From: Streptococcaceae bacterium ESL0729
Lineage (GTDB): Bacteria; Bacillota; Bacilli; Lactobacillales; Streptococcaceae
Direction of reading: 5' to 3'
DNA length: 64,000 bases
Assembly (NCBI GenBank): GCA_029391995.1
Contig: CP113924.1
Span: forward strand, 589,001 to 653,000
Positions 1,751 to 55,062 of this stretch are shown here, piece by piece; the first letter of the stretch is position 1; the number at the start of each line of letters is the position of its first letter. The notes under the pieces are model-generated. The model saw nothing but the letters and a program-made list of their open reading frames with translations. It was not told where the DNA came from and searched no databases. A program made the position numbers and the translations under genes.

Positions 1751-2115
1751 GGGCAATTTTCGGATAATCGCGCTGGTTTTAACCGGTGAGGAAAGTCCAT
1801 GCTCGCACGGGCTGAGATGCCCGTAGTGTTTGTGCCAGGTGAAACAATAAGCCTGGGGACGAAAGTTACGGCTGGGAAATTGGCTAAGTTTTGATATGCC
1901 AAGATTACCTATAAAAGTGCCAAAGAGACGAGTTTAGCTGGAAACGGCTAAAGTGGAACGTGGTAAACCCCTCAAGCGAGCAACCCAAACTTTGGTAGGG
2001 GCACTTGTCAAGCGGAATTGAACGTACGACGAGGTCATTATGACAGACAGATGATTATCGAAGGTGTAAGTACCTGCTTACACTGGAACAAAACATGGCT
2101 TATAGAAAATTGTCT
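1751..2115 (+). ncRNA. rnpB: RNase P RNA (class B)
   Basis: This is the catalytic RNA of RNase P, which trims tRNA 5' ends. The conserved core GAGGAAAGTCCATGCTCGCACGG is visible near 1788-1810 and the ACAGA motif near 2043. The closing P1 helix pairs the strand at 1752-1760 with 2106-2114. The whole has the Firmicutes class B layout and a promoter at the correct distance. Ends are estimated from the P1 helix and are good to a few bases. An intrinsic terminator follows at once. Confidence 0.95.
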
Positions 2116-40739: not shown

Positions 40740-40855
40740 GTTGACTTTGTGAAACCTTCATGAAGTGCAACCGCTCGAAGAGATGTCAAAGTGGCCTAGG
40801 CCCACATCCTGAGGCGAGTCTGACTAAAGGTCTAAGGACCTAATAAAAATCTAAT
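40740..40855 (+). ncRNA. Ribosomal protein L21 operon leader (candidate)
   Basis: The 130-base leader between the rplU promoter and rplU is rich in pairing: TTGAC (40741-40745) with GTCAA (about 40785-40789), a GTGG..CCCAC palindrome near 40791-40805, and AGGTC/GACCT near 40829-40842. Its position and length fit the L21 leader of Firmicutes, thought to sense L21. I judge it by context and folding, not by alignment. Confidence 0.65.
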
Positions 40856-41524: not shown

Positions 41525-41815
41525 ATGTTGAAATTAAATCTTCAATTATTTGCCCACAAAAAAGGTGGAGGTTCTACATCAAATGGACGTGATTCTCAAT
41601 CAAAACGTCTTGGTGCTAAAGCCGCTGATGGACAAACTGTAACTGGTGGATCTATCCTTTACCGTCAACGTGGAACTCATATTCACCCAGGAGCTAACGT
41701 TGGTCGTGGTGGAGATGATACTTTATTCGCTAAAATCGAAGGTGTTGTTCGTTTCGAACGTAAAGGCCGCGATAAAAAACAAGTTTCTGTTTACCCAGTA
41801 GCTAAAAAAGCGTAA
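41525..41815 (+). CDS. rpmA: 50S ribosomal protein L27 (precursor)
   Basis: The 96-residue protein starts with the Firmicutes extension LKLNLQLF, cleaved by Prp after Phe9, leaving [15 protein letters not shown] as the mature N-terminus that reaches the peptidyl-transferase centre. The remaining sequence ([16 protein letters not shown]) is standard. AGGAGG precedes the ATG. Presence of prp next door and of the cleavage site are consistent. Confidence 0.98.
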
Positions 41816-41821
41816 TAAATG

Positions 41822-41852
41822 AAAGATACTGACTTCGGTCAGTGTCTTTTTA
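41822..41852 (+). terminator. rpmA terminator
   Basis: AAAGATACTGAC pairs with GTCAGTGTCTTT around a TTCG tetraloop, followed by T bases. Confidence 0.9.
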
Positions 41853-41861
41853 TTTTACCTC

Positions 41862-41890
41862 TTGTAAATGTGTGTCAAATGGGATATAAT
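41862..41890 (+). promoter_or_regulatory. Promoter of an unassigned RNA gene
   Basis: -35 TTGTAA (41862-41867), 17 bases, and -10 TATAAT (41885-41890). No protein gene starts before the terminator 170 bases on. Confidence 0.7.
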
Positions 41891-41894
41891 TAAG

Positions 41895-42060
41895 CCATGC
41901 GATGAGTCGAGTCTTGGTACTTCGGTACCAGTTTCGAGCATGGATATCTGGGGCTTAGCCCGTCAAGGATTGATGAGATATTGACCAGCTTGTGTGAACC
42001 TTGTTGGACACAGGTTTTAATGCCTGCCATACCAAAAGACCTAGAAATAGGTCTTTTTTT
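41895..42060 (+). ncRNA. Structured non-coding RNA of unknown class
   Basis: About 165 bases with their own promoter and terminator and no open frame. A first hairpin closes with CCATGC (41895-41900) against GCATGG and contains a TTGGTAC-TTCG-GTACCA tip. A second domain is closed by ATATCT/AGATAT (or alternatively CTGG/CCAG with TCAA/TTGA) and holds a GGGC-TTA-GCCC hairpin. A third hairpin pairs AACCTTGT with ACACAGGTT. The end is AAAGACCTA/TAGGTCTTT followed by T bases (42035-42060). Candidates are 6S-like or a trans-acting small RNA; no known riboswitch core was recognised. Confidence 0.65.
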
Positions 42061-42122
42061 GTAGCTATTTTCATTAAAATTTTGTAACTTTTTTGTAAGT
42101 TTATGAAAATATCATCTGATTG

Positions 42123-42151
42123 TTGAATGTGAAAAAATTTAATAGTATAAT
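42123..42151 (+). promoter_or_regulatory. Promoter of asd-dapA
   Basis: -35 TTGAAT (42123-42128), 17 bases, -10 TATAAT (42146-42151). Just downstream AATTTTCAAAAAGGA (42167-42181) differs from the CodY box AATTTTCWGAAAATT at three positions, though its end is the Shine-Dalgarno. Confidence 0.7.
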
Positions 42152-42187: not shown

Positions 42188-43270
42188 ATGTCAAAATCGT
42201 ACACAGTAGCTGTTGTAGGTGCTACAGGAGCAGTAGGAACTCAGATGATTCGAATGCTTGAAGAGTCAACTCTCCCCATCAAAAAAATTAAATTGTTAGC
42301 CACAATCAATTCAGCTGGTAAGGTTTTGAAATATAAGGGTCAAGATATTGTTGTAGAAGAGACCATGGAAGATTCCTTTGAAGGGGTGGATATTGCCCTC
42401 TTTTCTGCAGGGGGTAGTGTTTCAGCTAAGTTTGCTCCTTATGCGGTTAAGGCAGGGGCTGTTGTGGTTGATAACACCAGCCACTTTAGAATGAACAAGG
42501 ACACACCTCTTGTTGTACCCGAGGTTAACCCCCAAGCTCTTGATGACCACAAGGGAATTATTGCCTGTCCTAACTGTTCAACCATCCAAATGATGGTAGC
42601 TCTTGAGCCAGTCCGTCGTAATTTTGGCCTTAAAAGAATCATTGTTTCAACCTACCAGGCAGTATCAGGGGCAGGAGCTAAGGCCATTGAAGAGACCATC
42701 AATGAATTAAAAGATGTCGTTAATGACGGAGTTGATCCAAAGGACTTGAAGGCTCAAATCCTTCCATCGGCAGGGGATAAAAAACACTATCCAATTGCCT
42801 TCAATGCCCTACCACAAATTGATGTCTTCACAGATAATGACTACACCTATGAAGAGATGAAAATGACCAATGAGACCAAGAAAATCATGGAAGATGATAG
42901 CATCCAGGTTTCAGCTACCTGCGTTCGGATTCCAGTAATAACAGGTCATTCTGAGTCTATCTACATCGAGACCGAAAAGGCTGTAGATATTGCTCAAATT
43001 AAGGAAGTTATTGCCAACTTCCCTGGAGCTGTCCTTGAAGATGATGTTAAAAATCAAGTTTATCCACAAGCTATTACAGCTAGTGGTCAAAAGGAAACCT
43101 TTGTTGGACGTTTGAGAAAGGACTTAGACGTTGAAAATGGGGTTCACATGTGGGTGGTTTCAGATAACCTCCTTAAGGGGGCTGCCTGGAACTCAGTTCA
43201 GATTGCTGAAACCCTTCATGAAAGAGACCTTGTAAGACCAACTGAAGAAGTAGTTTTTGACCTATATTAA
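42188..43270 (+). CDS. asd: Aspartate-semialdehyde dehydrogenase
   Basis: Asd makes aspartate semialdehyde, the branch point to lysine/peptidoglycan and to threonine. The 360-residue product has the Rossmann start [11 protein letters not shown] (residues 7-17), the active-site cysteine in [10 protein letters not shown] (about 126-135) and GHSESIYIE with the catalytic histidine (about 255). AAAAGGAG lies before the ATG. dapA follows 11 bases later; together they feed lysine and peptidoglycan synthesis. Confidence 0.97.
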
Positions 43271-50748: not shown

Positions 50749-51219
50749 ATGAAAAAAATATTAATCCCACTAATGATAGTAGGGGGAGTTGTTGCTGATC
50801 AGCTTGTTAAGCTTGAGACGGTAAAAAATATCCCTCTCGGAGAAAGTAAGTCTGTAATTAAGGGTGTTTTTAGTCTGACCCACCTGCAAAATACTGGTGC
50901 AGCCTGGTCACTGATGGAAGGTAAGCAGTGGTTTTTTACCCTCATAACCATCCTGGCCCTTACGGTTGGAAGTTATTTTTTATTAAAAAATATAAATAAA
51001 AGGAATGGAATTAGCTATACGGTGGCCTTGATTCTTACGGGGGCTTTGGGTAATTTCATTGACCGCATCCGCCTGGGTTATGTTGTTGATATGTTCCAAG
51101 TTGATTTTATTAATTTTCCGATTTTTAATCTGGCAGATATTTTCCTATGTATTGGTGTAGTATTACTTTATATAGCCATCTATTATGATGATAAGAAGAA
51201 GGAGAGTCAAAAGAATTGA
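50749..51219 (+). CDS. lspA: Lipoprotein signal peptidase
   Basis: LspA removes signal peptides from prolipoproteins in the membrane. The 156-residue product has four helices and the two catalytic aspartates in GNFIDRIRLGYVVDMFQV (about 103-120) and FNLADIFLCIG (about 126-136). HLQNTGAAWSL (about 44-54) is the conserved Asn-Thr-Gly motif. Its substrates in this window include the three lipoproteins. It overlaps the next gene by four bases and is predicted to be leaderless. Confidence 0.96.
   Translation: MKKILIPLMIVGGVVADQLVKLETVKNIPLGESKSVIKGVFSLTHLQNTGAAWSLMEGKQWFFTLITILALTVGSYFLLKNINKRNGISYTVALILTGALGNFIDRIRLGYVVDMFQVDFINFPIFNLADIFLCIGVVLLYIAIYYDDKKKESQKN

Positions 51220-53337: not shown

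Positions 53338-55062
<1,725 letters not shown>

Follow-up and report, generated by a model that had tools for sequence, protein, structure and literature searches.

The stretch of DNA analyzed here (64,000 nucleotides, referred to below as the window) was assigned to Floricoccus, the closest named relative by its Asd protein being F. tropicus (85%; Streptococcaceae, Lactobacillales). Between rpmA and asd, we recognized a predicted separate transcription unit for a small RNA (sRNA), flanked as follows:

41525-41815: rpmA, with its own terminator at 41821-41850
41862-41890, + strand: sRNA promoter TTGTAA-17-TATAAT, sigma-70-type, 10 of 12 matches
41897-42060, + strand: asd/MarS-type sRNA gene, about 164 nt, recognized by its RF01732 match and by tail-less model retrieval
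42034-42060, + strand: intrinsic terminator of the sRNA, AAAAGACCTA-GAAA-TAGGTCTTTT followed by a T-run, seen in the fold
42123-42151, + strand: separate asd promoter TTGAAT-17-TATAAT
42188-43270: asd

The predicted +1 of the sRNA is the A at 41897, 6 nt 3' of the -10 box. For most homologues, a -10-like box is visible 5-7 nt ahead of the conserved 5' end and, in relatives, we observed a hairpin with a T-run comparable to the sRNA terminator. A simple terminator scan left the terminator at 42034-42060 unlisted, though it is visible in the fold. An earlier sequence-only reading of this locus had proposed an independent structured RNA between rpmA and asd, with about 165 transcribed bases and no reading frame. 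Both proposals hold: the promoter, the terminator and covariation in relatives support the first and, regarding the second, the ORF list of the window contains no ORF of at least 80 aa overlapping the sRNA, while a 14-codon ATG ORF within it (41940-41984) is interrupted by a stop in F. tropicus. Elsewhere in the window, a 574-aa ORF at 53338-55062 (+ strand) carries a very long Asp/Tyr run as its C-terminal part.

Secondary structure and exposed sites

Taken alone, the folding energy is suggestive of structure, with a z-score of -2.9 against dinucleotide shuffles for 41862-42060 (0 of 200 equally low) and of -2.4 for the transcript alone (2 of 200). Covariation among relatives is strong evidence for the fold, and the comparative folding that had been proposed as a check came out in favor of a structured RNA. 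In a set of ten Floricoccus and Lactococcus RNAs, 87.7% of cells are paired in the proposed structure versus 34-44% with the partners slid, a comparison that favors the proposed fold since it was drawn from the window RNA; the independent part lies in the double changes, with 45 double-change cells observed versus 17 expected. Both sides have changed in 18 of 33 pairs, most strongly in P2 and P3 and most weakly in P0. The elements of the fold are the following:

41897-41910, + strand: 5' tail AUGCGAUGAGUCGA, conserved and single-stranded, starting at the predicted +1; common to Streptococcaceae, RF02840-type and RF03066-type RNAs
41915-41930, + strand: hairpin P1, UGGUAC-UUCG-GUACCA; 70% of cells paired, 3 pairs with double changes
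41940-42030, + strand: closing stem P0 (41940-41943 with 42027-42030), enclosing P2, P3 and P4; 63% of cells paired, 2 double-change pairs
41944-41981, + strand: stem P2 (41944-41949 with 41976-41981); 100% of cells paired, 5 of 6 pairs double-changed
41951-41961 and 41962-41974, + strand: hairpins P2a and P2b, inside P2
41966-41970, + strand: P2b loop AGGAU with a conserved GGA, invariant in alignment A3; a GGA-type loop is also present in other Lactobacillales families
41985-42007, + strand: hairpin P3 (41985-41989 with 42003-42007); 94% of cells paired, 5 of 5 pairs double-changed
41992-42001, + strand: P3 loop GUGUGAACCU, proposed mRNA-pairing site; UGUGAAC invariant in alignments A1 and A3
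42011-42026, + strand: hairpin P4; 94% of cells paired

In the transcript, P1 would thus be followed by a multi-branch domain closed by P0 (P2 with P2a and P2b, P3 and P4) and by the terminator, and three conserved sites would be left exposed, one being the 5' tail and the others the loops of P2b (GGA) and P3 (UGUGAAC(CU)). The P0-closed topology recurs in the single folds of loci L003, L149 and L154. Instead of the three well-paired domains announced by the sequence-only reading, the RNA is better described by five hairpins (P1, P2a with P2b inside P2, P3, P4) plus the terminator. The UUCG-capped hairpin that it described is present in the window RNA as P1, but the cap is not conserved and is replaced by UUAG, UUAU or GCAA in relatives. 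A hammerhead-like reading of GAUGAG...CGAA was ruled out, this motif being unconserved in Streptococcus. A kissing contact of the AGG in the P2b loop with the CCU in the P3 loop is possible in Streptococcaceae, and impossible where the loop is UGUGGAA.

Membership of the asd/MarS family

At gathering thresholds, the Rfam scan of the window reported an RNase P class B RNA at 1756-2107 (+ strand, 317 bits) and an L21 ribosomal protein leader (RF00559) at 40759-40831 (+ strand), upstream of rplU, and nothing else. The sequence-only reading had taken the RNA for a class that it did not know and had itself named a clear Rfam match as the counter-evidence; an E-value-threshold search returned such a match, RF01732 (asd RNA, MarS sRNA) at 41897-42061, covering model positions 1-146 of 146 with 64.8 bits and an E-value of 5.2e-12. 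The default scan misses the window RNA because these 64.8 bits fall below the RF01732 gathering score of 84, which is an annotation cut-off and not a biological feature; membership is argued here from homology. The orthologous locus of F. tropicus reaches 87.8 bits, above the cut-off, and 280 of 295 Streptococcaceae genomes contain an RF01732 match, one in each (244 exceed the cut-off). In addition, we used a covariance model (R1) of 10 Floricoccus and Lactococcus RNAs from which the 5' tail had been removed, so that the tail could not carry the match. It retrieved 14 Streptococcus asd RNAs with E-values of 1e-8 to 3e-4; outside Streptococcaceae, R1 was weak, with one match in register (E 0.12). 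The sRNA region had no match to a known cis-regulatory family, riboswitches and T-boxes included, at either Rfam threshold, as expected from the earlier statement that it shows no familiar riboswitch core.

The window RNA is an already known kind of small RNA and not an unknown class, and it is almost certainly the divergent Floricoccus ortholog of the asd/MarS sRNA (SR914400 in GAS, Srn046 in GBS, srf-17 in pneumococcus). With this family it shares the full-length match, an identical 5' end, the covarying P2 and P3 stems, the UGUGUGAACCU loop, its own terminator and the location upstream of asd in Streptococcaceae. It differs by an extra P2a hairpin GGGCUUAGCCC, by AAGGAUUG where asd/MarS has CGCAGGAGCG, by the lack of AAGGAGG, by its rpmA neighbor, which among the 56 named Streptococcaceae loci precedes the sRNA only in Floricoccus, and by an mga pairing that is not supported (see below). 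By itself, the window RNA adds an overlooked copy to a known sRNA family, and it shows that the RF01732 cut-off is too strict outside Streptococcus. Another cut-off that looks too strict is that of RF02635 (Enterococcus sRNA EF0820_EF0821), for which we observed strong sub-threshold matches at L146 1492-1829 and L142 5395-5736 (E 1e-25 and 3e-13, respectively).

Related RNAs across Lactobacillales

We searched 118 Lactobacillales genomes with three Rfam models and obtained matches to RF02840 (Ref68/Lacto-3) in 54, to RF01732 in 24 and to RF03066 (COG3610-DE) in 10, together 77 genomes. The RF01732 and RF02840 matches coincide in 9 of the 9 genomes matched by both, and those of RF03066 and RF02840 in genomes G037 and G353. 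RNAs of all three kinds have a common 5' end, NUGCGAYGAGNYGA, directly after a -10-like box, and share two hairpin loops, one of the GGA type and one with UGUGR. UGUGRA is present downstream in 35 of 38 non-Streptococcaceae RNAs, which are not independent in descent, versus 4.4 expected from shuffles. Of 25 RNAs sampled outside Streptococcaceae, in most cases a single one from each genus, 14 carry a UGUGR hairpin loop 14-50 nt downstream of a GGA hairpin loop, versus 0.11 expected. A second tail-less model (R2), made from nine non-Streptococcaceae RNAs in which covariation is present, recovered further families in register. Run over 122 kb of Streptococcaceae loci, it gave six weak matches (E 0.08-7), of which five fell exactly on the asd RNA. 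A weak R2 match with a GCUGUGAACAUU hairpin at L055 549-678 (+ strand, E 0.5) is probably due to chance; the asd RNA of this locus lies elsewhere. When all subfamilies are aligned jointly with MAFFT, the GGA loop is misplaced, and therefore no single order-wide model was made. Beyond Lactobacillales, a pattern of tail plus UGUGRA was found in one genome (G510) of the class sample, a chance-like result; most members from outside Streptococcaceae escape this very strict pattern, too.

Compared to the window RNA, Ref68/Lacto-3 RNAs are alike in their first 14 nt, apart from a few variants, and in their GGA-type hairpin loop, and many members carry a UGUGR hairpin past the end of the model. In contrast, the window RNA obtains only 23.2 bits with RF02840, below the cut-off of 44, the P1 shape differs in some families, several have a UGUGGAA loop, and the gene neighbors are others. 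COG3610-DE resembles the window RNA by a 5' end with one change (NUGCGACGAG), a GGGAA hairpin loop and a UGUGAAAC loop; however, it occupies another genomic place, and RF03066 has no match in the window genome.

Common descent of RF02840 and RF01732 is supported by the shared positions, the R2 matches and the shared architecture and, judged from their sequences, the three models appear to describe a single family of Lactobacillales. In Rfam, RF01732, RF02840 and RF03066 are listed without a clan, and we found no report linking them in a partial coverage of the literature; this link between three separately catalogued RNA families is what is new here. We consider it rather likely that asd/MarS, Ref68/Lacto-3 and COG3610-DE are the same single-copy sRNA, already present in the ancestor of much of Lactobacillales, in which the fixed 5' end and the two fixed loops would serve a common function, the regulation of mga in S. 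pyogenes being a late, lineage-specific use. Should the three be a single RNA, enterococci and other lactic acid bacteria would possess relatives of an S. pyogenes sRNA linked to virulence, and its ancestral role would be open to study in harmless laboratory species.

Mode of action and relation to asd

As a whole, the explanation that we favor, with good though not full confidence, is a divergent asd/MarS ortholog forming its own transcription unit and most likely acting in trans as an antisense RNA through its P3 loop. Transcription of the sRNA would start at its own promoter and stop at its own terminator, and the P3 loop would pair with AGG-containing mRNA leaders through its C-rich end, ACCU. 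The model for such pairing is MarS, which binds the 5' UTR of mga mRNA in S. pyogenes, a change of 88-CC-89 abolishing this binding in gel shift (PMC5613026). By alignment, the CC of the P3 loop falls on RF01732 model positions 88-89 and appears to correspond to MarS 88-CC-89. For the window RNA, we infer expression in Floricoccus, base-pairing action and targets alike, and we regard a base-pairing mechanism, taken as a separate claim, as evenly balanced between true and false.

A Mga-domain gene is present in the Floricoccus genome. By a crude duplex energy, pairing of the P3 loop with the 5' region of this Mga-like gene ranked 37 of 39 background genes, worse than nearly all, and mga is not supported as a target in Floricoccus. 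Sites of the genome itself that are complementary to the 5' tail or to the P3 loop with at most two mismatches numbered 16 versus 16 and 23 versus 25 in reversed controls, respectively. Among duplex energies computed against 39 window genes, the best matches lie inside coding sequence (a pseudouridine-synthase-like gene at 51216 and the end of asd). The duplex at the end of asd was rejected as a target and attributed to chance; it lies in a conserved GVHMWVV stretch (GIHMWVV in F. tropicus). In the other families, the P3-type loop is UGUGGAA or UGUGAAA, without CC, and therefore ACC pairing is not a family-wide function.

The main rival to base pairing is a protein-binding RNA of the sequestering or scaffold type, 6S RNA-like, whose invariant 5' tail and GGA and UGUGR loops would contact a protein or the ribosome, mRNA pairing in GAS being a later addition. 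This role would agree with the three separated motifs kept across Lactobacillales families on covarying stems, with the antisense sites for the tail and the P3 loop being in no excess, and with an RNA that is very stable in GAS (PMC2765633) and declines in late stationary phase in GBS (PMC4448216). However, no binding partner is known, and the GAS RNA no longer binds mga in vitro once two bases of the predicted pairing site are changed (PMC5613026); we hold protein binding to be unlikely, while deserving consideration.

Very improbable is a translated small mRNA or dual-function RNA, read either from AUG-CGA-UGA, a two-codon frame at its 5' end, or as a peptide like pneumococcal rio56. A Ribo-RET signal (rio56) lies within srf-17 (PMC9426450), and the RNA begins with A, G or U in every sequence inspected, as a start codon would; yet the Floricoccus RNA has neither the UUG start of rio56 nor its AAGGAGG, the 14-codon ORF is broken in F. 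tropicus as described above and only 5 of 10 tagged sORFs gave bands, rio56 not being named among these in the text consulted. The two-codon leaderless ORF was rejected since it is broken by AUGCGACGAG variants.

Regarding asd, all 56 named Streptococcaceae loci that contain the motif have the sRNA upstream of this gene, the distance from the sRNA end to asd being 63-1883 nt (RNA length counted as 165 nt). A 212-codon gene lies between the two in F. tropicus and two genes separate them in an S. parasanguinis-like strain; for homologues in other families, none of the six neighboring genes tested was present. According to published work, the homologues of GAS, GBS and pneumococcus are transcripts of their own. 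In S. pyogenes, MarS is transcribed separately and is stable (PMC5613026; PMC2765633, there SR914400). Srn046 is visible by northern blot in GBS and also declines at pH 5.2 (PMC4448216), and the pneumococcal homologue is srf-17 (PMC6212727), for which, as srf-17/F38, the transposon data tabulated in PMC9426450 give a nasopharynx fitness of 0. The sRNA gene is independent of asd, and the sRNA is not an asd leader because genes sometimes intervene and the distance ranges as above. A cis-acting asd leader, the original prediction for the asd motif, is thus scarcely tenable: it would account for the constant location upstream of asd in Streptococcaceae, but not for the sRNA terminator and the separate asd promoter (the latter rightly pointed out by the sequence-only reading, which had denied a simple leader), the intervening genes, the homologues devoid of these neighbors or the independent transcript in GAS. 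No lysine riboswitch was detected in the window at Rfam gathering thresholds; one lies downstream of asd in Lactococcus insecticola (L056 3595-3790, + strand, also L005 2867-3062).
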